Shown here piece after piece: positions 10,824 through 45,150 of a stretch of DNA of 64,000 nt. The notes beneath the pieces are model-generated. The model saw only the letters and a list, made by a program, of their open reading frames with translations, was not told the DNA's origin and made no database searches. The position numbers and the translations under genes are program-made. Source of the stretch: Psychrobacter sp. JCM 18901. GTDB taxonomy: Bacteria; Pseudomonadota; Gammaproteobacteria; Pseudomonadales; Moraxellaceae. The stretch covers positions 62,001 to 126,000 of the forward strand of contig NZ_BAWH01000005.1 of assembly GCF_000586435.1 (NCBI RefSeq), read 5' to 3'. Each line of letters begins with the position of its first letter. Positions within the stretch are counted from its first letter, which is position 1.

Positions 10824-11843
10824 ATGAGCGACGAAAAAGAAGACGCTGGCACCGATTTTGAAGGAAAATTGGCTAGAATTATTGACCAAAAGTCGCGTAA
10901 GCGTAATAACAATGATATCTATGAACGCTTTATTAATCGAGTTCATGGTTCTGAAGAGAACGATCAGGCTGCGTTTGAAACACTAGAAAGTGCAAAGAAC
11001 CTTGCCGCTTTCGAACCCTTGAGCACAGAAGAGTTGCAGCTGTTTGAAGATCAAAGCAGTGAACAAGAATTATTACTAGAAACAGAAGATGCTACAGCAG
11101 AAAACACCACCTCTAAAGCCTCAAATACAAGTACATTATTTGAAAATGTATCTGAAAATCATGTGCTGAATATCGCTAATGATAGCGACAGTATTAGTAT
11201 TGATGTCAATGATGTCAGTTCAGATACAGAGGCCCCAGAATATATAGATCGCAACAATATAGATAGTAGTAATCAAACAGAGTCACCCTCTACGATTGAC
11301 CATAGTGAATCTGTCATAACTGAGATATCAGATGATGATTCTTTAAACATCCCTTTAAAAATTGAGGATGTGTCTGAATCAGCTATCGAAGAGCCAGTCA
11401 TAGACAATAAAGTGATCAAAAGCAAGAAATCTCTCATGATGGCTATGGCGATTGGTTTAATCGTATTGGTTGCTATTGCATTAATGCTTGTATTTTCAGG
11501 AGTCTTATCTACTTCTGCGGTTGATAGTATAGACAACAGCACTGATGGTAATGTAGAGATAGACAGTACACCAGCTGTTAGTGCTGATCCAGTACTGTCT
11601 ACTGACAGTCAAACAACTACGGATGGCGTTGACCCTGTAAGTACGCAACCAGCCACTACTCAGCAAGATACTTTGGACAACAATAGACAGGACCTGCCAG
11701 CTGTTAGTGAATCAGTGTCAACTTCTGAAGCTCCTACATCAGAGAATGATGCCGCAGTTATAGCTACTGAAGAAGCTGCCATAACTTATGAAGATTTTAG
11801 ACAAGAGTCGCAGACTACCTTGTACCGCGAAACCAATGATTAA
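10824..11843 (+). CDS. Single-pass membrane protein with C-terminal DF(R/K)QE motif
   Basis: A 339-residue protein I do not recognise. Residues 1-200 are acidic and hydrophilic; a single transmembrane segment lies at about 204-224 (SLMMAMAIGLIVLVAIALML), preceded by KSKK, which predicts a cytoplasmic N-terminus and periplasmic C-terminus. Residues 225-315 are Thr/Ser/Asp-rich and look disordered. The last residues (about 322-336) read YEDFRQESQTTLYRE, a motif repeated twice in the next gene. It is upstream of that gene on the same strand, 162 bp apart. The N-terminal 40 residues (DFEGKLARIIDQKSRKRNN) could form a helix. Intact frame. Confidence 0.7.
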   Translation: MSDEKEDAGTDFEGKLARIIDQKSRKRNNNDIYERFINRVHGSEENDQAAFETLESAKNLAAFEPLSTEELQLFEDQSSEQELLLETEDATAENTTSKASNTSTLFENVSENHVLNIANDSDSISIDVNDVSSDTEAPEYIDRNNIDSSNQTESPSTIDHSESVITEISDDDSLNIPLKIEDVSESAIEEPVIDNKVIKSKKSLMMAMAIGLIVLVAIALMLVFSGVLSTSAVDSIDNSTDGNVEIDSTPAVSADPVLSTDSQTTTDGVDPVSTQPATTQQDTLDNNRQDLPAVSESVSTSEAPTSENDAAVIATEEAAITYEDFRQESQTTLYRETND

Positions 11844-22505: not shown

Positions 22506-23101
22506 CTAAGAAGACTTTATGGCATCCAACTGTACTCCAACCACACGAAGTGCCATCGTCTTCCAATCTAGCTCCAGTTCATCGGCGAACACTACATGGT
22601 GACTAATACTGACGTACCCATGTACGATTGCCCAAATATCCAACGCTATTTGCCGACGTTCCGTCACGCTAGCCTCTTCTGATAAATAAGAACCCGCCAC
22701 CCGTACCAATTTTGAGAAAGCACTATCTCTTGCAGCAATAGCTTCGATTGAGGCTGATATCCTGCATCAGATTCCCCAAAAATCAGCCGATAGTGCGCCT
22801 CATATTTCTCGCCTACATTGAGATACCCTAGGCACGCCTCTAGCACTTGCTCTTTATTTGCTCTACCCTCTGGAATGACATCCATGGCTTCACGGACTAG
22901 GTTAAATCCTTCTATGTACAGCGCATCTAGTATGCCTTGCTTACCTTGGAAGTGACTGTATATACCGATGGTGGACAACCCTGCACGTTTAGAGATAGCT
23001 CGCACGCTTAGGGCATCCCCACCCCCTTCTAAAAAAAGCTCAGATGCGGCGTTTAGTATTTTGGTTCTGGCATCCATTAGATTCTCACTATGTCTTGACA
23101 A
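22506..23101 (-). CDS. TetR-family regulator (frame interrupted)
   Basis: About 198 residues read in two frames joined near 22745. The N-terminal helix-turn-helix is standard (ILNAASELFLEGGGDALSV, AGLSTIGIYSHFQGKQGIL). The C-terminal ligand domain follows the TetR_C pattern with LDIWAIVHGYVSISHH. It is divergent from the flavoprotein/DUF2855 operon, and the 95 bp between them hold a tandem palindromic operator, so it very probably represses that operon and itself. Confidence 0.87.
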
Positions 23102-23102
23102 T

Positions 23103-23138
23103 TATAACAGTGTTATTCTAGTATATAACACTGTTATA
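23103..23138. promoter_or_regulatory. Tandem palindromic TetR operator
   Basis: Two 13-bp palindromes, ATAACAGTGTTAT (23104-23116) and ATAACACTGTTAT (23125-23137), have centres 21 bp apart, two helical turns. Together they also form one larger inverted repeat. They lie 2 bp beyond the TetR start and 60-90 bp before the flavoprotein start, as expected for cooperative binding of two TetR dimers. Confidence 0.85.
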
Positions 23139-23196
23139 CACAAACAATTATGAATTGATTGTATTGATAGAAACTCAACTTAAGAGTAAGGACGCT

Positions 23197-24636
23197 ATGA
23201 GTATTCAACAGCTAGAAACGGATTATCTAATCATTGGTAGTGGCGCGGTGGGCATGGCTTTTGCCGATGTGCTGCTCACAGAAACAGATGCTAATATTAT
23301 TATCGTCGATAAACATCATAAGCCAGGTGGTCATTGGAACGATGCCTATTCGTTTGTCACATTGCATCAGCCATCGTCTTTTTATGGTGTTAGCTCACGT
23401 GAGCTTTGCGGCGGTATGATTGATAAAATTGGTTTAAATAAAGGCTTGTCCGAGCTGGCGTCAGGTGCAGAAGTCATGGCGTACTTTGATAAAGTCATGA
23501 AGCACACGTTTTTACCAAGTGGCCGCGTGAAGTACTTCCCGATGTGTGAGTACAAAGGCGATGGCAAGTTTTCATCATTACTGTCTGATACCAGCTATGA
23601 GGTTAAGGTCAATAAGAAAATCATTGATGGCACTTATTTTAAAACTTCAGTACCAGCAACCCATACCCCAAACTTTGAGATTGCTGAAGGTGTTAAGTTT
23701 GGCCCGTTAAATGACTTGCCGAGTCTAACCAAACCCCGTGATGGTTACGTGATTATCGGCGGCGGAAAAACAGGTATAGATGCGGTTTTATGGCTATTAG
23801 AGAATCAAATTCACCCAGACCATATCACATGGATTATGCCAAGAGATGCTTGGCTGATCGATCGTAAAAACACCCAACCCTCTCGTGATTTTTTTCACCC
23901 ATACTATAGGGGCGCAGGCTACTCAAGCAGAAGCGATTGCGGAAGCTGAAAACATCGAAGACCTGTTTAATCGTTTAGAAAGAGGCGGGGTATTAATGCG
24001 CATTGATCCAAATGTACGCCCGCAAATGTTCCATGGTGCCACCATTAGTGGTGAAGAGCTTAAGCAGTTACGCCGTGTTAAAAATATTGTGCGTAAAGGT
24101 CGCGTAACTCGCTTAGATACTGACAAGATTTATTTTGGTGAGGACAGCATTTCTACCACCCCCAACACCATGCATATCGACTGCTCTGCACGGGCAGTAC
24201 CAGTGACAGAGACATACGATGTGTTCAAAGGTGATACTGTGGTGGTACAAACCGTACGTACCTATCAGCTGTATTTAGTGCCGCATTTATCGCCCACATC
24301 GAGGCCAGTTATGATGATGAAACCGTCAAAAATGAATTATGCCAAGTGGTGCCAATCCCAAATCATGATACAGACTTTTTGGTTGGCCTTGTTAAACAGA
24401 TGCAGAATCAGATGCGTTGGTCAAAAGAGCCTGCGCTACGTGAATGGATGATCAACAATCGCTTAGATGGCTTTACCAAATTGGTACGAGCCAGCGAAGA
24501 CACGCCACCTGAAGAGCTTGCTATTCTTAAGCGTTTAAAAGAAGCAGGACCAAAAGCCGCTGCAAACATGCCCAAACTCATGGGTGAAATTATGCAAATT
24601 ACGGCAGCGCGTCAAGCCAACACCGCTAATACCTAA
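23197..24636 (+). CDS. FAD/NAD(P)-binding flavoprotein (frame interrupted)
   Basis: About 480 residues of a two-dinucleotide-binding-domain flavoprotein. The FAD Rossmann motif is YLIIGSGAVGMAFAD (residues about 9-23), followed by KPGGHWNDAYSF typical of monooxygenase-like proteins; a second Rossmann motif is YVIIGGGKTGIDAVLW (about 185-200). Start at ATG 23197 was chosen over 23155 because AAGGA precedes it and the Rossmann motif starts at once. Frames change near 23915 and 24330. It is first in an operon with the DUF2855 gene 50 bp downstream and is opposite the TetR gene. The substrate is unknown; a role in detoxifying a lipophilic inducer is a guess. Confidence 0.8.
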
Positions 24637-24687
24637 AAAGTAATTATTTAGTAATAACTATCAAGAACAACTGTCAAGGAAGCGACT

Positions 24688-25787
24688 ATGCAAGAATTTC
24701 AGACCAATAAAGCAAACTTAACCCAAGCTCGCCTGCAAGAGACGCGTATACATACTCTCGGCGATGGTGAAGTACGTGTCAAAGTTGATCGCTTTGCTTT
24801 TACTGCGAATAATATTACTTATGCAGTCATGGGTGACCAATTACGCTATTGGCAGTTTTTCCCGCCAAACGGCAACGAGCCCGAAAAATGGGGCATTATT
24901 CCAGTATGGGGTTTTGGCGATGTTGTTGAGTCCAATAGCGATGCACTACCTGTCGGTGATCGCTTATTCGGTTACTTCCCGCCCGCCAATGAATTAATCA
25001 TAACACCCAAGCGAGTCACCCAAACCAGTTTACTTGATGGTAGTGTCCATCGTGCCGAGCTACCACCCGGTTATAATTTATACCAGCGCGTCAATCATGA
25101 ACGAGGCTATGACCGCGCTCATGACGATCAGCGTATGCTGTTGTTCGTATTGCACCTGACCTCATTTTGCTTACATGATCTATTGAAGGGTAATGATTGG
25201 TTTGGTGCAGAGCAAGTGTTGATTATCAGTGCCTCTAGTAAAACCAGTATCGGCCTAGCCTATGGCCTCGCTGATGATAAAGACGCGCCGCACGTTATCG
25301 GCCTCACATCAAACCGTCATGTAGATTTTGTTCAGTCAATTGACGCTTATGACAGTGTGCTTAGCTATGACACCCTTGAGCAGATTGATGCAACTAAGCC
25401 GACAGTTATTGTAGATATGTCGGCCAACACTGACGTGCTCAGCCGTTTACATAGACACTTAGGCGATAACATGCGCTATACCAGCAATGTCGGTCTTACG
25501 CACTGGGACGAGCCACGTCATACCGAAGGTATCATTCAAGCGCGTAGCCAGCAGTTTTTGCGCCCAGTCATGTACAGCAACGTATGAAAGAATGGGGCCC
25601 TGAAGAGTTCAATAAACGCTCTATGCACTGCATCATGAATTGCTCGGCAAAAACTAGTGTGTGGTTAAAGATTCAGGAGCTTGATGGAGTCAGTGGCTTA
25701 CTAGAGGTTTATAAAGATATCTGCGAAGGTAAGATAGCCGCTGATGAAGGCTTGGTAGTCGTCATGGGTGATAATGAAAAAGACTAG
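24688..25787 (+). CDS. DUF2855 family protein (frame interrupted)
   Basis: About 366 residues of a DUF2855 protein, distantly like quinone oxidoreductases of the MDR superfamily. Visible features are WGIIPVWGFGDVVESN (cofactor-domain entry), DRLFGYFPPANELI and VLIISASSKTSIGLAYGL, the last resembling a degenerate nucleotide-binding loop. One base is missing in the T run near 25560; restoring it gives QQFFAPSHVQQRMKEWGPE. It is 51 bp after the flavoprotein gene and preceded by AAGGAAG, so the two are cotranscribed. The function is unknown. Confidence 0.8.
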
Positions 25788-25931
25788 GCTATAAAACTGG
25801 CTATAAAATTTATCGACTATTTGTCATTAGCAAAATAAAAATTAATTGGCATGAATTTTATCAGACTTTAGAGCCTCATCTGACAGTACAGTGGACCAGC
25901 CATCAGAATACAGAGGTACAGCTTAAAAGCA

Positions 25932-26330
25932 ATGGCTAATGCCCTCATCATGAAAATGCCTTTTGTGAAAGATGTGACTCATGTAGGTACAACTGCTGCT
26001 GAGTCTTTTGCAACGAGCGCTGGCGTGTGCCAAGATCACACTCATGTATTTTTAGGCTGTTTACGTGATCAGCATATCCCAGCACGCTATGTGTCAGGCT
26101 ATCTTTATGACGATACCGAGAACCACATGGCCAGTTATGCGTGGGCAGAAGTATGGTTAGATGGTTACTGGTATACCTTTGATATATCAAATCAGTTGTT
26201 TCAACCAAGCTCTCACGTCTACGTCGCCATTGGTCGAGACTATTTAGATACTGCACCTGTGCGCGGTGTACGTATGGGCGGCGGTTACGAAAATCTTTAC
26301 AGTCAAGTGTTGGTTTCAAGACTATCATAA
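25932..26330 (+). pseudogene. Anbu-associated transglutaminase, N-terminally truncated
   Basis: A transglutaminase-like cysteine protease/transferase domain of the type found in Anbu operons. The catalytic triad is present: Cys in SAGVCQDHTHVF, His in ENHMASYAWAEVWL, Asp in YTFDISNQ. The N-terminal beta-rich half (about 130 residues in the family) is absent; upstream to 25845 only a short coding-like stretch in another frame (WHEFYQTLEPHL) remains. The Anbu operon normally also has circularly permuted ATP-grasp and alpha-E genes before this one; neither is present, and DUF2855 lies directly upstream. A deletion from the alpha-E side into this gene is the simplest explanation. Confidence 0.75.
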
Positions 26331-26365
26331 GCTATTTTTATGCTTGTCTTCAACAAGGATCTGTT

Positions 26366-27106
26366 ATGACTTATTGTGCCGCTATTCGTCTTAAAGAAGG
26401 AATGGTTTTCGCTAGTGACACTCGCACCAATGCTGGCGTTGACCATATTTCGACCTTTAGAAAGCTCTATCAATATGGCGTCGAGGGTGAACGCTTTATG
26501 ATATTGCAGACAGCTGGTAGTCTGGCAACATCGCAGGCGGTATTTAACAAACTGCAAAACGATATTGACCAGCGTCTTGAGAGTAACCTTAATACGGTAG
26601 CGACTTTATTTGATGCCGCCCAAATGGTTGGTGAATGTATGCGTAATATTATGAATCATGCAAAAGCAGTCGCTAATGCTGATGTCGACGGCGCATTTAC
26701 TAGCTCTTTTATGCTGGGTGGTCAAATTAAAGGACAGCCACCTGAGTTATACCTGATTTATCCTGAAGGCAATTGTATCAAAGCCACTGAAGATACTCCG
26801 TTTTTTTCAATTGGGTGAAAGCAAGTATGGCAAACCTATTCTAGATCGTTCTGTCAGCTACAATACGGATGTGAGACACGCAGCACGTGCGTTGATGCTG
26901 TCATTTGATTCAACCATTCAATCCAACTTATCAGTAGCATGCCAATAGATTTTGTACTTTATAACAATGACAGCCTAATCCTGCCTAACGGCCGACGTAT
27001 TGATGAAAGTGATGAATATTTCAATAGCATTCGTCGTCAATGGTCAAAAGAGCTACGTCGTATTTTGGTTGAATTGCCTAAATGTCCTGATGGTTATTGG
27101 GGATAA
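26366..27106 (+). CDS. Anbu, ancestral beta-subunit-like proteasome peptidase (frame interrupted)
   Basis: A proteasome-type Ntn-hydrolase of about 247 residues, the size of Anbu. The N-terminal Thr nucleophile position is MTYCAAIRLKEGMVFASDTR, with the Asp/Lys positions around KLYQY, and SSFMLGGQIKG later. The frame changes near 26812 at a run of seven T and near 26938, then ends PKCPDGYWG. It follows the transglutaminase remnant by 35 bp. Anbu is usually found with an alpha-E, an ATP-grasp and this transglutaminase and is thought to process or degrade a peptide made by them; here the partners are lost, so its present role is unclear. Confidence 0.85.
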
Positions 27107-27238: not shown

Positions 27239-27276
27239 GCTTTAAAGGCCTTGAATGCCATCATAATGATGTCACA

Positions 27277-27535
27277 CTCAATTGTTGTGTAATCTACCTC
27301 ATGACCTGGTACATGGAAGACTCACTGGACTGCACCTAGATAAAGGCCCTAGTGCATTAGCTCAATCACGATTGCGTGATTGCGCCAGCGAGCTAATGAC
27401 ACTAGGGCCTTTATCTAGGTATTAGCAGGACTGAAACAGTCTTCCTTGGGTAAAATGTAATGGCTTGACTCGTGGACGACGCAACGTCGCCCCTCACCGT
27501 AAACGGTGAAACGCTAAATCTCACAACTCGTTAAG
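27277..27535 (-). ncRNA. Retron msr-msd RNA
   Basis: Minus-strand RNA of about 259 nt with all the parts of a retron RNA in order. a1 (27535-27515) pairs with a2 (27296-27277) with about 17 pairs including three G-U. Right after a1 comes TTTAGC with the putative branching G at 27514. The msr has hairpins TCACCG-TTTA-CGGTGA (27509-27494) and an 8-bp stem with TTG loop (27492-27474). The msd is a very long hairpin: 27445-27438 pairs 27322-27315, then about 30 bp (27420-27390 with 27363-27334) with one bulge and an inner AATCACG/CGTGATT hairpin. A terminator follows. Unusual: divergent from the operon and 13.5 kb from the RT. Confidence 0.78.
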
Positions 27536-27578
27536 TTTGCCTCATAATAGTTATTATTGTCAATATATAATTGCAAAT

Positions 27579-27712: not shown

Positions 27713-30700
27713 ATGAGTCTGTCATTTTCACAAATTCAGCAAGCTTGGCAAGCCCAAGATCCAAGTTTGGTCGATAAATTATGTACATTGGCAACTCAAG
27801 CTGATGCGATTCCCGAGACGCCCATCCCTGAGCATGAGCTTACTTTTGATCGGTTTTTAGATAAGATATTTAGTCATCAATTTCGGGAGCAATACCCCGA
27901 AGTACAGTTTGCAGAGCGCGTGGCAATGATTGCCAAATTGGAAGCAAACGAAGGCGTCTACCCCCTCCCAGATCGCTATAAGATTCATATAATACTGACC
28001 GCACTGTGGGAAGATGGCAGCGCGTATTCTAGAACTATTTTAAAACAAGCCATTACGGCTTTGCCAGTCAGCTACGGTGTGTGGAAAGGTTTAAAGCGCA
28101 TTTATAAGCAAGCAGAATTTTCTCAAGATTATGAGATATTTGGGCAAATAGCCGCCAAGATTGATTTACAGCGTTTCAATCAAACCGCCAACTCTGCGGT
28201 CAGCCTAGCGACCAAAACCTATATGAGCCTTAGAGCATGGCGTTATTTGCGCCAGCTAGGACAGCAAATGCCAATTGGCTACATTGATGCCGCCGTTTCT
28301 GTACTCGCCAGCTATGACGAAACCATGATGGCAGGCAGCCTCGAACAAACGAACAGCTGGGTGCTCAATCATATCTGTTTCCATAACAGTCTTGATTATG
28401 GTGTCAATCGATTCAGCAGTCGCTCACCTCGCAAGCTCTTTGATGCCAAAGGTCGCGCCTTCGCTGAGGCGTGGCAACGAGACCCTGAACCACTTATCCA
28501 GCTATTGCTATCGCCAAAATGAGGCTATCAGACAATTCGCAACCGATAGCCTAAAACACGACTTTAAGACCCAATTACGTGATGTGAGTGGTGAAACGCT
28601 ACAATATTTATCTGCCGGACAAGCACATAGCAAAGCGCGTGATGAGATGATTGTTTGGCTATTAGAAAACTCACCGCATTTTGAAAAGTCTAAATTTAAA
28701 ACATTGGGCTTGCATCAAGTGGTGCTACAGCTACTCCATTCACACTATCCTGCCGCCTATCAATATGCGATTGGCTATGCCAAAAGCTACGCTCAAGACT
28801 TATCGCTCACTGAGCTGATGCTACTAGCCATGTCAGATTATGAGCCTGTTAGAGCATTTGCCATCAACAATATCTTAAGTCGTGACCTTGTTGCTGATAT
28901 TGGTGTCAACGGTTGGGGGCAGTTATTAGATACCGAACATCACTATCAAACCGCGAGCAAACAACTTAGCAAACACTTTACAAGGCGCGATTTAACCCCT
29001 GAGTGGTTTTTTGAACGATTGACCAGCGGTAGAACACACAGCGTAAAATTTGCCATAAAAAAAACTACCTGAGCTCTATAGTGCCAAAGAACTAGGGACT
29101 GAATACTTTATTCGCATTGCCCAGCAGCTAGACATACCAGAGCAACAGGACTTCTCTGCTTATAACGACAGCGACTGCATGAACTTTGCGTTGGACCAGC
29201 TCAGACGTTTGGATTTGAGCCAAGTAAACGCTGACGTGTGGCAAATACTGCTATTACATCCACTATCGCAAGCGACTATTACCGATTGGTTTGATGAAGA
29301 TGTACTGTCAGCCGCGACGCTTGATATGAGCTATTGGCATGCGCTTGCCTATGAGCCTGATTGGCAAGTGAGTGAATATATTGAACGATTAAAATCTGCT
29401 GATACTTCTATTAAAAACTGGCAAAAGCACTTAGCTTTTGATGAGTACTTAGCAGAAAACGTGAGAGATTGGCTGTCTGATGTGCGTCGGTTTGCGCCGA
29501 TAGATTTAGGTTTCGACTGGCTTATGAACCTTGCGCATAGCGAACAAGCACTCTATCGTGAATTTGCGATTGAACGCATTAACAAAGGGTTCTTGCCTGC
29601 CGACTTTATCGCATATCTCGACAGCAATGAAGGCGACTCTACTGATAACGCTTCCAGTAATAGCACTGACAATAAAGACTCAAATAGCGATGCTGCTACT
29701 GAAGTAGATTTAACCGGCCAACGCTATTTATTCACAGGCAAGATGCAAAGCATGACTCGTGGCGAGGCCGAAAAAGTTGTGAAAGCGGCTAATGGTGCTA
29801 TTAGCAGCGCCGTCAACGGCAAGTTAGATTACTTGGTCATCGGTGATGATGGTTCACCATTATATGGCAATGGCCGTAAAGGTAGCAAGCAAGTTAAGGC
29901 CGAAAGCTTAATCGCCGATGGTGCGCCGCTAAAGATTATCTCCGAAACCGCATTTTTGCAGATGTTAAGTGGTCAATCTAGAGAGGTATCTGAAGACGAT
30001 ACTTTTGCAGGTGCCAATGCACTGTGGCATATGGCAACAGATGATGCTACTGCACCTATCAGTGAGCTTGCGATCAGCTACCTCAGTCATCATCATGAAC
30101 AGATCTGTATGGCACTGACAGACAGACCAGTCGATCCCGATGCGATTATCCCTTCTTCGTTCTTTGATGCGGAGCGCGTCATTCCTTTATTGCAACACCG
30201 TAACAGCCAGCTGCGAGCATTTGGCTTATTACTGAGTGAGTATGAAATGGCGACGTGGCAACCGACGCCGGCCCTATGGCTGATGATGGCAGAATCTCCC
30301 TATACTGAGGTCACGCAACTGCTGAAGCGTGCGCTATTGGATAAGCCATCCGTTGCCAATCGACGTTACCACGTTCAGCCAGCACAATTGAATGCTGGCA
30401 TGTTGAATGCTTTGATTGAAAGCAAAGCGCGAGTCGCTCGCCAAATCGGTATCACCTTACTGCAGCGTCATGCCAATTTCCAAGATGTGCAGTCTTTATA
30501 TCGATTGACCCAAAGCACAGACCGTGAAGTACGTTATGCCGCCGTGACCATGCTATGGAAACACTACAAGGCGCGTCACGTATCCCCAAACTGGCAACCA
30601 ACCAGTAGCGATAGTAAAGATAAAGATACTGCACCAGATAAAGACAACAGCGCTCAACCAGTCATAACAGAACAGTCAGATAGACGTTTGGCAAGCTTGC

Positions 30701-31110
30701 CTGCAGAAGTCGACCAATTATTGATGCTGCTACGCCGTGGTCTCTTTGAGCTACCACCTGGACGTCTAGGCGGTTCGCAAGAGCCAAGTGCTAGTGACAG
30801 CAATAAGCATAAGCAACAAGGCTATTCAGATAAGCGCTCATCATCACAGTCATACGAAGCAGCTGAGTCAGATAACAATATCACGCTAAAACCCATATCT
30901 GCGAGTCGTGCCAAATTGGCGTTGATTGAAACGTTCCGTGATGTGGCATTGGCTGACAGCACCTTTGCGGCGCTCATTATGCCCACACTGTTCACCTTTA
31001 CACACTCGGCAGGCAAGATGGAGCGTCATGCGTGTTTGGTTGCAGTCACACGGTTATTGCATCGCTATCCTGAGCTATCTAAAAACCTGCAGCCAGTTGC
31101 ATCTGCTTAA
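27713..31110 (+). CDS. HEAT/ARM-repeat protein with internal BRCT domain (retron operon gene 1; frame interrupted)
   Basis: About 1132 residues in three frame pieces joined near 28518 (AAAA) and 29060 (run of eight A, where IKK resumes LPELYSAKELGTEYF). Most of it is all-alpha and repeat-like, with segments such as QAITALPVSYGVWKGLKRIY, EALIRLLAHNHPP-type helices and REVRYAAVTMLWKHYKAR. A BRCT domain lies at about residues 663-750 (GQRYLFTGKMQSMTRGEAEK to SETAFLQML), of the DNA-ligase type. ATG 27713 is preceded by AAGG. It is first in the operon, so it may be the ARM-type partner of a retron. BRCT domains bind phosphopeptides or DNA ends; no catalytic motif was seen. Confidence 0.8.
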
Positions 31111-31202: not shown

Positions 31203-34200
31203 ATGAAAACAATAACCCTCCCCTATTGGGGTCAAATTATTGGCCTAGTCAGTAAGGCCAACAGCACCCAAGCGGCAACTCAAAAGACAAGCAAGCAAGA
31301 TGGGCGCAGTCTTTTTATTACTCGCCAGCAGCGAGCATCTGCTACGGTCTTATACGTCCTTGATCAACAAGGTGAGCAATTCAGCTTATCGACAACTGCA
31401 CTGCCTTGTGCGATGCAAGCCATCATCAAAATAGATGACAGTACGGTGGTAATGATTGGTGACGATGGTCATCTTTACCAAACGGATTGGCAAGCCAAGA
31501 AAGTTAAGAAGACCAGTGCTACATCCTTGCTTGATGCACCTGAAGATAACAACAGTGCTATAGGCCGTGCCGTAGCCATGGCGCCGCTACAAGATGCGTT
31601 GGCTATTCTATACCCCAAACACCTCGTGGTATGGCCTTATCAAAATAGTCAAGCCAGCAGTACTGTCATCATTGAGCCTTATTCGTCTTCTATAGCAGCA
31701 TCAAGTAAAGAATCCGCATTAACAGCGCTAGCAACGTCAAGTGATGGCTCGTGGTTAGTCGTAGCAGATAAAACGGGAGAGGTTAGTAGCTATCAATGGA
31801 CCTCAGATGGCGTTCAGCTCAATCTAAGTAGTCGCAAACAGCTCCACCAAGGTAAAGTAAACGCGCTTTGTTTTGAGCCAGTCGGCCAGTACTTCTTCTC
31901 AGCAGGCGCAGATAAGTGCTTGTACCGTACTCATGTCCAAGGCGATCTGCATCCTGTTGATAGAACTAAGTCTAGCCAACACAGCGAAATGATCACGGCG
32001 CTTTGTGTCTCAGACACACGGCTCTTCACTGCCGCCGATGACAAGAGCGTCAAATCATGGGCATTTGATAAAGGTCAGCCAAACAGCTGTAAAGAGGATC
32101 TAACCAAGGCTCGACAGATCGTTTTATCTTCTTACGCTGAACAACCAGCGCTCATCGTAGTCAGTGCCGATCAGAGCCTACGTTTCATACCTATTGACCA
32201 TACTAAAAGTACGTCACAGAATAGTACGGCACAAAACAGTAAGTTGCTCCCAGTCACTTATATCATCAAAGACGGCTATCAGAGAATCAGCCAGTTACTG
32301 ACAGATACGTCAAATAATAATGATGTGTCGTTTAAAGAAGGATTGGCGCTGCTACAGGCGCAAGCAGATAACCAAACGTTAGAGCTGGTTAAAAAAATTA
32401 CTTGCTGATAGCGACACGCTCACGGCCAATCAAGCATTGCAATTGGTACAGTGGGTTGCGACTACTAATCTTGATAAAACTGCACAGATTTTAGAGCAGC
32501 AACTAAGCTCGGCGCACAGTGCAAAAGTACGCCTTGCTGCTTTTCATGCCTTGGCCGATCGCGCAAATACGGCGAAGCGCCCGCTGCATTATCTAGAAGA
32601 AGCCTTTAAAAACCGTTACTACGAAGAGGTGGTGGCTTCTGCGTTACAAGGTTACCTAAAGGTCGCGATGAAGGATGCCACAAGCCAGCGCCGCATCTTG
32701 CCTATTTTAAGAGACGCGTTGTCACACAGTTTTGCAAATATTCGTAAGCAAGCATTGGCCTCGCTTGAGACACTATTGCCTGACAACAGCCCTCAAGCAG
32801 ATTTGATGGCATTAGACTGCAATCAGTCAGACATTGTCCAATCAGGACTGATTCGTCTGTATCAGCGCGGTATGCTAAACCATCTTGAAGTCTCGCGTCA
32901 GTTGATGCTGCTACAGAATCATCGTAATACAGAGATTAGGCAAACAGCGTTTTACGTCTCATTGTTGTCTCAGCCTAAGTTGATAGAGGCATTGAAACAG
33001 CAAGGTGACACGCAAACATTACGTACCCTGACTGATTTTGATGACTTTCGCTTACTGCGCGGCACGCTACTAGATAACGCTAGTAGTACAGCGGCGAATA
33101 ATAATAATGTTAAACAATCCGATGAGGCGATCCGTTTAACCTTATCTACGCAAGATTTTATCTCGCAAGCAGATAGTACTCAAGCATCTAAGAGTAAGGC
33201 TAAAACGGCAAAATCCAAGAAGCCAGCTACTGAATCTATAAAGCTAAGCAATGACACGTTAGAACCCTTATTACAAAGCTTAAGCAATAGTCACGAAGAT
33301 ATCAGTTTCCGAGCGGCGTATGCGCTGGCTTGCCTACAAGACAAACGAGCGTTTGGCACCCTGATTAGCCTAATGAGCCATGAAGACAGTGCCATCATCC
33401 GTGCTGGTGTCGCCACAGCGCTTGGTCATTTAAATATAGAAGACGCCAAAGCAGTCCTACCGACATTACTAGATGATAAGGACGCTGGCGTGCGCCAAGT
33501 CGCCATGCAAGCCTATGGCAAGTTAGCAGACAATGCATTGTCTTGGGCAGCGACAGGTTTTGCTTCTAAACATCAAGACATTCACGAGCAGTCTTTAGCA
33601 CTGTTTTTAAAGCATGTCGCACCGGATAGCGCAAATAGTGGTGATAGCAGTGATAAAAGTATTCAGATGTCATTAGAGATGACAGACATACTGCTACAGG
33701 CATTGAATAACCCTTTTACCAGTATTCGGTTAGAAGTGGTTAAAGTTCTATTAAACCGCCAATTTAAGCAGTCATCTGACAGCGCCATCGTTGACATCAT
33801 TGAGCTATTGCAGCAAAGCCTCTTTGAAGATGTGCATCAAGTGGCGATAGAAGAATGGCAACGACTGCTGCTAGCGATGAACTCGAAGCATAAAACAAAT
33901 AAAGCCAATAACACTGAAGAAACGAATCACCAAAAGACCAATCAAGCTGTCCTGACCCTGTTCTTTGCGGATACGTTTGCCGCTATCCGTAAGCAAGCCT
34001 TTGACATCGCATTGAAACAGAGCAAACACTTAGGGTTTGCTGACGTCATGTTAAATGCACTTGCCAGCTTATGCGGACACTAAGCAACTGGCCCTTACGA
34101 CAGTGCAAGCCAGAGCCAATACGACTCAGCTGACACAACTGACGCCAGCTCTAGTGGCCATGTTCGCTGATGACAGTATTGAGCTACGTAAACAAGCTTT

Positions 34201-41096: not shown

Positions 41097-42534
41097 ATGA
41101 CCACACACACAGCCAACAATAACGATTACATCAGCCCTGAGCCAGTATCCACTCCTTTTGAGCGTCAGTGGCAGCAACTATGGCAAGATATTGAGCTGGC
41201 AGGCGGACGTTACCAATATGTTCAGCAGCAGCTGGTCAGTCAAGGCTTTATGGTCGAGCGTCAACCTGTCGATAACATGAGCAAAAGAACGGGATCGCTA
41301 TAAAAAGACTTGAAAAAAGAGGCGGCTGAAGAAAAAAAGTCTCAAAAAAAGCTGCTTGGCAAGCATACAAAGCGCATCACATGGTTTATCTTGGTCGTCA
41401 TATATATTGGACGGACGATACCAGTATCGATAAGTGGGACGTAAAAGACGCGGCCAATCGGCTGATTGAAAACAAACTGCCATTGCTGCATAAACATAAT
41501 GAGTTAGCAGAAGCGGTTAACCTTTCCATTCCGCAGTTAAAAGGATTGTGCTATCAAAGAGAAGTTGCCACCAATCTGTCTTATTCGCATTTTACTATTG
41601 CCAAACGCAATGGGACAGCACGTCAAATATGGTCGCCGATACCACGTTTGAAGTTTGTACAACGCTGGATTTTGCATAATATTTTGAATAACTTAACGAC
41701 GCATGGTGCCGCCCATGGCTTTGTACGCGGCAAATCTATCGTGACCAACGCGGCAGTACATAGCAATAGTGAGCTCCTTATTAAGCTTGATGTCAAAGAT
41801 TTCTTCCCTAGCGTGAGCTGGCGCCGTGTCAAAGGCGTATTCCGTCATGCCGGCTACCCAGAGCAAATTGCCACATTACTGGCATTACTCTGTACGGAGT
41901 CGCCTAGGCAAGTGGTACAGCAAGATGGCATCACCTATTATGTGGCATTGGGTGATAGAGCCTTGCCACAAGGCGCACCCACCAGTCCAGCATTAACGAA
42001 CATCGTTTGCTTAAATCTGGATCGCCGCTTGACAGGATTGGCAGAACAATTGGGCCTACGTTATAGCCGTTATGCCGATGACTTGACCTTTAGTGTGCCC
42101 GCTATTGAAGTCACTACACCCAAATCGAAGGCTAAAACAACGATTAAATCCACGACCAGCACTGCAAAAAAACAAGCCGATACGCAGCACAATAAGCTAA
42201 TCGGACAACTGCTCGGCTCAGTCCATAAGATATTACGCGAAGAAGGTTTTGCGTTAAATAACGACAAGACACGTGTGATTCGTAAAGGCAATCAGCAACA
42301 AGTGACAGGCATGGTGGTCAATGGACAAGGCGTACCTAGGGTATCTCGTCAGATCAAAAAATGTTACGAGCAGCCGTTCATAACTTAGAGGCAGGCGGCA
42401 AATTACGCGCGGATGAGACTTTAAATACGTTGTCAGGATATGCCGCTTGGATAGCCTCGGCAGAGCCGGAGCTAGGACATGCTTATCTAGATAGAATTGA
42501 GCGTTTGCAGGTGCAGCAAGAGACATCTGTATAG
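41097..42534 (+). CDS. Retron reverse transcriptase (frame interrupted)
   Basis: About 479 residues. Retron-specific motifs are visible: NAAVH (NAxxH, about residue 217), motif A LIKLDVKDFFPSV (about 227), LPQGAPTSPALTNI (about 291), catalytic YADD in YSRYADDLTF (about 326), and VTGMVVN (about 402). AHGFVRGKSI precedes motif A. Frames join near 41285 (run of A) and 42360. It makes msDNA from the retron RNA. Two oddities: an N-terminal extension of about 150 residues with a Lys/Glu-rich coil, and a Lys/Thr-rich insert after YADD (about residues 340-365). It is the last gene, 3 bp after the SWIM gene. Confidence 0.92.
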
Positions 42535-42630: not shown

Positions 42631-45150
42631 TTACATCAATAAAAACGGTGCAGTACGGCTGTCTTTCGATTGGGCAACGTCATATGGCGTACCTTGAGCA
42701 ACAATCATTCCGCCCGCATCCCCTGCTCCTGGCCCAATATCAATAATCCAATCACTATTGCTTGCCACTTGCATGTCATGTTCAACCATGATGACGGTAT
42801 TGCCTGCGTCGACAAGACCATTTAACTGCATCATGAGCATAGACACGTCAGCAGGGTGTAGGCCAGTGGTTGGTTCATCCAATATGTATAGTGTGTCGCC
42901 TCGCTGCGTGCGTTGCAGCTCGGTGGCAAGCTTAATACGCTGCGCTTCGCCACCTGATAATTCAGTGGCAGGCTGACCCAAACGTAAGTAACCAAGTCCA
43001 ACTTGTAGTAACGCCTCTAATGCACGCAAGATAGGCGCTTCATCAACAAAAAAATTCGTGAGCCTTTTCAACTGTTAAGTTTAATACTTCAGCGATGTTT
43101 TTGTCTCGATAAGTGATTGCTAGCGTTTCCTCGTCATAGCGTTGGCCATGACAAACCTGACAAGGTGCATAGACACTGGGCAGAAACAACAGCTCAACAC
43201 TGACAAACCCTAAGCCTTCGCAATTTGGGCAGCGGCCTTTGGTCGTGTTAAATGAGAACCTGCCAGCATCATAGCCATGAGATTTTGCTTGCTTAGTCGC
43301 CGCAAAAATCTTACGCACATCATCAAACAAGCCAGTATAGGTTGCCAAATTAGAGCGCGGTGTACGTCCAATTGCTTTTTGATTGATATTAATAAGGCGA
43401 CGGACGTGCTCCATACCAGCGACAATTTCACCGCCAGTTACTGACTCAAGCTCTTGCTCAAGTAATTCCGCCTCACCGACAGGCGCTTCTGTGACTGTCT
43501 TTTGCCCCAACGCTTCATTGATAAGCTCTACCAACGCTTGACTGACGAGACTTGATTTGCCTGATCCTGATACCCCTGTGACGCTGGTCATGACCCCAAG
43601 CGGAAACTCAACATCTAATCCTGTAATATTATTTCGCTCAATGTTGGCAAGTTTGAGCCAGGCTGCCGGCTGCCTTGTATTAGATTTTGACTGTGCGTTA
43701 GACGTCGCATTGGCAAATAGGTATTGACCAGTATGCGACTGTTCAACTTTACGAAGTCCATCTACAGGGCCACTATAGATAATCTCGCCACCATGCTACC
43801 TGCCTTTGGTCCGACATCGACTATCCAATCAGCATGTCTAATGACACTCACATCATGCTCAACAACAAACACAGAATTACCAGCTGCAATCAGCTCATCC
43901 AACGCCCCTAGCAATGCTTGAGTATCAGCAGGATGTAAACCAGCTGATGGCTCATCAAGGACATACACCACGCCAAACAGCTGCGAGCGAATTTGAGTGG
44001 CCAAACGCAGTCGCTGTAGCTCGCCAGGAGAGAGAGTCGGTGTGGTACGCTCAAGCGAGAGATAGCCTAACCCTAATCTTGTCAACGCTTCAACACGAGA
44101 GAGAATATCACTGGCGATACGCTGGGCGACGATGGCTTTTTCGCGGTTTGGTGTGTTATCGGCTACCTTGGTACAAGCGGTTACTTCTAATTTTTCCGCC
44201 ATTTCTGTTAGCGTTAGCTGTGATAGCTCGCCTATATCCAATCCTGCAAACTTAACCGATAGCGATTCTTTCTTTAGTTTTTTTACCATGACATTCTGGA
44301 CACTCAGATATCTGCATAAACTGCGAGACACGCTTTTTAGTACGCGGGCTCTGAGTGGTAGCAAAAGAGTGCAAAATGAAGTTTTTGGCACTGGTAAAAG
44401 TACCCATATAGTTTGCTTTTCGCCTTTTTCTATCGCATCGCGCGTTTGCTCAATGTTGTATTCAGGATAGACAGGCACTGTCGGCGTATCATCTGTAAAC
44501 AAAATCCAGTCGCGTGTTTTTTTAGGTAGTGTGTGCCATGGTTTATCAATATCATAGCCCAATGTGGTCAATATACGACTAAGGTTTTGACCTTGCCACG
44601 CTGGTGGCCATGCTGCAATCGCACGCTCACGGATGGTCTTGGTATTGTCTGGCACCAGCAACTCTTCAGTGACCTCAAATACGCGGCCAATACCTGAACA
44701 AGTTGGGCAAGCACCATCTGGCGTATTGGGAGAGAATGCATCGGCATATAGTATTCCTTGATCTGCCGGATATTCTCCTGCTCGTGAGTACAGCATGCGC
44801 AGGCCATTGGATATCGTCGTAACGCTACCCACAGACGAGCGCACTGAAGGCGTACCTCGCTTCTGCTGTAAAGCGACTGCTGGTGGTAACCCTTCTATAG
44901 AATCAACGTCTGGCTCATCGACCTGATCAATGAGTCGTCTGGCATAAGGCGATACAGAATCAAGATAACGGCGTTGTGACTCGGCAAATAGTGTACCGAA
45001 TGCTAATGACGACTTGCCTGAGCCTGAGATACCAGTAAAGACCACCAATGCATTACGAGGTAAGTCAACATCAACGTTCTTCAAATTGTGTACGCGCGCA
45101 CCTCTGACCTGAATATTATCTTGGTCAGGGTTATAAAGGGTATTTCTCAC
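42631..45150 (-). CDS. UvrA-like ABC ATPase, UvrA2 type (frame interrupted)
   Basis: About 840 codons, near the size of UvrA2 or DrrC-like proteins and shorter than canonical UvrA (about 940). Two ABC modules: first Walker [17 protein letters not shown], signature [14 protein letters not shown]; second Walker [11 protein letters not shown], signature [15 protein letters not shown]. Zinc-binding cysteines occur in [24 protein letters not shown] (read in an alternative frame near 44300) and CPNCEGLGF. Several frame changes (near 44400-44290, 43780, 43590 and 43050). UvrA2 proteins act in damage tolerance or drug resistance. It sits convergent with the retron RT. A damage or drug role is inference. 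Confidence 0.85.

Follow-up and report, generated by a model that had tools for sequence, protein, structure and literature searches.

Introduction

In the accessible portions of PMC6376114 and PMC5666114, the Anbu operon is described as a set of genes for an ATP-grasp protein, an alpha-E protein, a transglutaminase and Anbu. According to the same portion of PMC6376114 (2017), the function of the operon was still unconfirmed, Thr1, Asp17 and Lys32 are candidate catalytic residues of Anbu, and no peptidase activity was found for the Anbu proteins tested there. The gene set and order so described are the same in the Psychrobacter relatives compared here. In contrast, the window, by which we mean the whole stretch of 64,000 nucleotides from Psychrobacter sp. 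JCM 18901 that was analysed, is without the ATP-grasp and alpha-E parts and without half of the transglutaminase, whose catalytic His is also gone. Among the literature matches listed for Psychrobacter together with Anbu, no title concerned Anbu proteases. Since Anbu and the transglutaminase occur almost strictly together in an 80-genome sample of this genus, the rare exceptions are where one may ask whether Anbu acts alone.

Results

The window holds the tail of an Anbu operon

What is left of the operon (ATP-grasp/alpha-E, transglutaminase, Anbu) in the window is its tail, at 25918-27105. On its left lie a TetR regulator gene on the minus strand and a plus-strand NAD-binding flavoprotein-like gene, which we label FMO (22519-24640, each broken by 1-base indels), followed by a DUF2855 gene (24688-25787, plus strand) broken by one T-run indel. 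The junction of a first deletion, D1, comes next (25844-25845), then the 74-bp leftover end of a divergent GDSL-hydrolase gene (25845-25918, minus strand), the junction of a second deletion, D2 (25918), the transglutaminase remnant (25918-26330, plus strand, with an ORF of 132 aa from 25932) and the Anbu gene (26366-27105, plus strand), which is whole apart from two 1-base indels. The DUF2855 gene, the transglutaminase fragment and Anbu share one orientation. Between the Anbu and UvrA-like stops sits a type XIII retron cassette, of an anti-phage kind (27106-42622, plus strand), a neighbour outside the remnant, and the UvrA-like gene itself, presumably UvrA2 (42631-45150, minus strand), forms the right-hand border of the variable region.

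Family searches agree with this layout. The ORF at 25932-26330 matched Transglut_core (PF01841, E 1.5e-15) with no Bact_transglu_N, and that at 26366-26818 matched the Proteasome family (PF00227, E 1.6e-05). The nearest complete operon was found in genome G024, taken to be Psychrobacter proteolyticus HAMBI 2948, where 1177 of 1189 positions are identical to the window over 25918-27105 and the order is DUF2855, a divergent GDSL hydrolase, a 793-aa ATP-grasp protein, a 261-aa transglutaminase and a 246-aa Anbu. The 793-aa ORF matched CP_ATPgrasp_2 (Pfam, E 4.1e-152); we take its approximately 285 further residues for alpha-E, a family to which Pfam gave no match in this ORF. With both family matches and this complete counterpart, the remnant Anbu operon that a first-pass annotation had placed at 25932-27106 is borne out. 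Its start moves to 25918, after a GDSL piece that the annotation left unmentioned.

Two closely spaced deletions removed the upstream part of the operon

The two halves of the junction at 25918 lie 3,649 bp apart in G024, and their join has 1 bp common to both sides. D2 took most of the GDSL gene, the GDSL/ATP-grasp intergenic region, where the operon promoters presumably lie, the ATP-grasp/alpha-E gene and the first 124 of the 261 transglutaminase codons. The left half of the junction derives from the terminal part of the GDSL gene, which makes 25845-25918 a leftover of this hydrolase gene. A 131-bp query spanning the left-hand edge of the remnant was searched against 105 Psychrobacter genomes, the window's own among them. 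Only the window's own genome (1 of 105) was matched across the junction; 45 other genomes gave partial matches, and in 21 of these 45 the two halves appeared as separate matches.

D1 lies only 74 bp away and measures 178 bp relative to G024, 183 bp relative to G003 and 185 bp relative to G040 and G009. It carried off a terminator-like stem of 16 pairs between the DUF2855 and GDSL genes, which can be seen in nine aligned relatives. In G024 a terminator scan scored this stem only on the minus strand, the strand of the GDSL gene; a T run seen by eye after the stem on the plus strand suggests that it may work both ways. A regular-expression count of terminators (10 of 15, window included) overlooks visible variants, and the claim of a stem rests on the alignment and the G024 scan.

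We then looked for the missing genes in the rest of the window's own assembly. PF08379 (Bact_transglu_N) had no match anywhere in it, the G024 ATP-grasp protein had none in a protein search run without a positive control, and a DNA search with the missing D2 segment (3,640 bp) matched nothing but a dispersed repeat of roughly 105 bp, present at nine places in this assembly (G000). Relocation was accordingly rejected, and the loss of the ATP-grasp, the alpha-E and half the transglutaminase, as first annotated, is upheld. Nor is read correction likely to restore a complete transglutaminase, the alternative raised with that annotation, since the gap is 3.65 kb and not a run-length error. No repeat or mobile element was found at the joins. 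The dispersed repeat was considered as a cause of the deletion and dismissed, because it lies inside the deleted segment and at neither junction. In the G024 locus (L041) a copy stands between the ATP-grasp and transglutaminase genes, at about 11012-11122.

The transglutaminase fragment is probably dead whereas Anbu is whole

Against G024 the transglutaminase fragment differs in three codons, two of them silently, and the third replaces the catalytic His198 by Tyr; Cys162 and Asp213 are retained. All 28 other transglutaminase orthologues of the fetched set carry Cys-His-Asp. The window thus contains no transglutaminase with this triad, its His being Tyr and the N-terminal half gone, and the fragment should not work. 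The His-to-Tyr change is evidence for a dead gene separate from the deletion.

Anbu is different in this respect. Its profile matched over positions 1-245 (1.8e-112) with two stops read through, a Shine-Dalgarno-like AAGGA precedes its start, and Thr1, Asp17 and Lys32 are retained, the same residues as those named in the accessible portion of PMC6376114. The stop at 26818 comes after a 1-base insertion in a T run (about 26804-26810, +1 T); the gene runs on in a second frame, returns to the first after the loss of one G from a GG pair near 26937 and ends near 27105. Five silent and two replacement changes separate it from G024 in 246 codons, and one of the replacements, Asp at 242, is the commonest residue among the relatives (28 of 32, window included). 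Such absence of damage is easier to reconcile with a deletion of recent date, or with retention of Anbu, than with prolonged decay. As the changes relative to G024 are too few to measure selection, Anbu may have been retained alone.

Split frames in the window carry the signature of run-length errors

The assembly is 84.7% complete and in 58 contigs. Compared with the P. proteolyticus ORFs, the window showed 34 indels that change the frame over 22.5 kb, made up of 20 in a first set of ORFs (12.6 kb) and 14 in a second (9.9 kb); 30 of the 34 are 1-2 nt in base runs. In five control genomes, compared over the first ORF set (L041) only and over 8 to 16 kb each, we counted 1 to 8 such indels per genome, with 0 to 2 of run type. 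With the Anbu-to-retron ORFs of G061 as reference, the window had 27 indels in 16.6 kb, 16 of run type, versus 10 (1 of run type) and 11 (3 of run type) in two controls. We counted only ORFs of which at least half aligned; the window comparisons used 12 of 15, 11 of 11 and 7 of 8 ORFs. Run indels in the assembly add A or T and lose G or C. At about 1.5 frame-changing indels per kb, mostly of 1-2 nt in base runs, many split ORFs of the window are probably errors, and the case shows that an error-rich assembly can mimic pseudogenes. Both Anbu indels fit this assembly-wide signature, and a frameshift pseudogene was therefore rejected.

Larger differences were few. Over 42623-64000, two blocks aligned with G024 contain just four gaps of 10-20 bp, and between the blocks the window has about 95 bp more than G024. 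A Fic gene on the left is about 470 bp shorter than in G024, and the same shortened Fic occurs in G040 and G066.

The M90-peptidase/UvrA-like site is a hotspot shared with a retron

From 52 of 79 relatives we fetched the flank of the UvrA-like gene that faces Anbu, giving 53 loci with the window. In forty of these the fetched sequence includes the M90-peptidase gene as well, and we call them anchored; the other 13 were not counted. The complete operon looked for at the same site was present in 27 of the 40 anchored loci (a set that includes the window), six had a partial operon and seven none, in line with the rearranged hotspot proposed at first. We took an operon as complete when each of its three genes was matched and the Anbu match covered codons 1-245 or more; in some of these 27 operons the ATP-grasp match begins at residue 25 to 62. 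Besides the window, the partial loci are G045, G046 and G039 (Anbu codons 32-246), G070 (201-246) and G019 (102-245, beside its partners); they lie at the same site, but the break points of the window differ from theirs. About 60 bp separate the border genes of G020 and G071. By comparison of gene content, then, the site is a genuine hotspot, at which Anbu remnants of several kinds occur.

The modules around the remnant have different closest relatives among those fetched: G024 for the remnant block (99%), G063 and G003 for the DUF2855 gene (95%), G003 for the M90 stretch (96%) and G010 for the retron reverse transcriptase (99%). Such mosaic ancestry seems to reflect modules moved independently by recombination. 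The TetR-FMO-DUF2855-GDSL series also stands ahead of complete operons, for example in G024, G029 and G061. The DUF2855 gene does adjoin the remnant, as the first-pass annotation had it, but the adjacency is not a product of the loss.

Fifteen of the 40 anchored loci contain the retron. It follows a complete operon in nine (G048, G009, G017, G079, G063, G064, G027, G015 and G061), stands alone in G026, where the operon is gone, and lies behind the remnant in the window; in the other four (G074, G053, G013 and G033) a related retron is on the operon's other side, in front of it. The retron site is empty in G024, G029, G003 and others. In all, 18 genomes have the reverse transcriptase at 67% identity or more, 15 of them within the hotspot; in G010 it adjoins the UvrA-like gene on a contig whose sequence stops there, and G032 and G060 are unplaced. 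Since the retron accompanies complete operons in the same order in nine relatives, the loss did not place it there, contrary to the earlier statement that the loss left Anbu next to the retron. Moreover, retron and deletion are on opposite sides of Anbu, so they are best seen as separate events, and the case illustrates how two neighbouring variable modules can seem causally linked when they are not.

Anbu with and without a transglutaminase

In an 80-genome Psychrobacter sample, own genome included, all 44 genomes with a transglutaminase N domain have Anbu. Anbu occurs in 48 of the 80, and the four of these without the N domain are the window's genome and three whose Anbu is cut at codon 32. 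The window is thus the only case in this sample of a full-length Anbu without the N domain. Two genomes (contig C28 of G013 and contig C2 of G036) carry, besides the standard Anbu, a second one of 76% identity that is accompanied by a transglutaminase N-domain gene of its own.

At the level of the class, 69 of 274 genomes contained Anbu and 61 of 274 had a PF08379 match, the own genome being counted in both. Among the 30 Anbu loci listed from that search, which include the window's and two that are truncated, a neighbour check found a transglutaminase-like frame at nine, one being the window's fragment. At 21 of the 29 other loci, no transglutaminase was detected within about 1.5 kb by a narrow home-made model, which was built from seven sequences and therefore likely misses some. 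We searched 10 upstream frames from 10 of these 21 loci against Pfam, and no transglutaminase family was matched: DUF2126 was found twice, MutS, a molybdopterin-dehydrogenase FAD domain and an ammonium transporter once each, and five frames had no family. With these counts (21 of 29 by the narrow model), the idea that a stand-alone Anbu is rare was weakened. At L220 and L234, loci of other members of the class, Anbu stands directly behind a DUF2126 putative amidoligase gene, a different partner set.

Origin of the remnant

We consider it probable (roughly 0.8) that the locus is a decaying Anbu operon, with two deletions, a dead transglutaminase fragment, a whole Anbu and a separate retron. The finding is most likely real, well explained and ordinary in kind, plain decay being its most economical reading. 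The ancestor would have had the order of the relatives, DUF2855, divergent GDSL, ATP-grasp/alpha-E, transglutaminase, Anbu. Comparison shows that the 3,649-bp deletion ran from the GDSL interior to transglutaminase codon 124, taking the upstream region, the ligase and half the transglutaminase, and that the deletion of about 180 bp took the terminator-like stem separating DUF2855 from GDSL. Joins with about 1 shared base, visible in the sequence, may have arisen by end-joining or replication slippage. The presumed pathway of peptide ligation and hydrolysis would now be dead: with the ATP-grasp absent and the transglutaminase without its catalytic His, the ligation steps should not occur here. 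As the stem and the region ahead of the operon are lost, any Anbu made would most likely come from read-through out of DUF2855. The retron would have entered the spacer behind Anbu separately, before or after the deletion. That arrival of the retron, or a rearrangement, both caused the loss and moved Anbu next to the retron is very improbable. The two do share one hotspot, and G045, G046 and G039 have retron leftovers ahead of their truncated Anbu, but the window's deletion is on the side of Anbu away from the retron, and nine relatives combine retron and complete operon in the same order.

An assembly artefact, in which the operon is complete in the real chromosome and wrong ends were joined by the assembler or during gap closing, is suggested by the error-rich assembly with its completeness of 84.7%, its 58 contigs and its excess of 1-base run indels, and by two deletions just 74 bp apart. 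We regard it as improbable, given that the two sides of the junction share 1 bp and no repeat, that a search found the missing 3.6 kb on no other contig, that the G024-aligned blocks over 42623-64000 contain just four gaps of 10-20 bp, that the Fic shortening recurs in G040 and G066, and that the His-to-Tyr change is a separate sign of a dead gene. In promoter capture, which we hold to be unlikely, loss of the stem and of the region ahead of the operon would have fused Anbu to the TetR-FMO-DUF2855 unit, and Anbu would have been retained as an Ntn hydrolase working alone, with neither ligase nor transglutaminase. The co-orientation of DUF2855, fragment and Anbu would suit it, as would the loss of the stem present in nine aligned relatives, the kept Anbu catalytic residues and Shine-Dalgarno-like site, and the class-level loci at which the narrow model detected no nearby transglutaminase (21 of 29 others). 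A scan of 25600-26400 also agrees with it, since promoter-like and terminator-like sites were not above chance (2 versus a mean of 2.0; 1 versus 0.5). Against it, the G024 stem was scored as a terminator for the minus strand (GDSL) only, its plus-strand stop being a reading by eye; the DUF2855 and Anbu frames are both broken in the assembly, probably by errors; the changes between Anbu and G024 are too few to show selection; and other strains at this site simply lost Anbu. That two small deletions converted the Anbu pathway of four parts into an Anbu standing alone and expressed from the TetR-regulated oxidoreductase/DUF2855 unit is about as unlikely; if true, it would be a natural experiment in which the active site is kept while ligase and transglutaminase are separated off.

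The neighbouring type XIII retron

The cassette next to Anbu consists of an ncRNA region, two HEAT-ARM genes, a SWIM gene and a reverse transcriptase at 41381-42388. By the protein models of PADLOC it is a type XIII retron, with RT_XIII (5.8e-129), SWIM_XIII and HEAT-ARM_XIII all matching, but the window's frames are broken, mostly by run-length indels. Among the retron literature matches listed, no title named type XIII. Within the ncRNA region, a 21-bp perfect inverted repeat lies at 27334-27420, and Rfam gave no match in the window at the gathering threshold. By eye, changes in the hairpin stem are paired on both sides between retron groups (27240-27560 and relatives). The hairpin is absent from G039, G045 and G046, and in G064 the hairpin portion of the region is inverted, with 100% identity on the opposite strand. 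We also noticed that the first HEAT-ARM protein (29179-31110) contains a stretch, which we take to be a BRCT domain, like the ends of the DNA ligase LigA and of a PolIII epsilon model, and that the second (31203-32408) begins with a WD40-like propeller.
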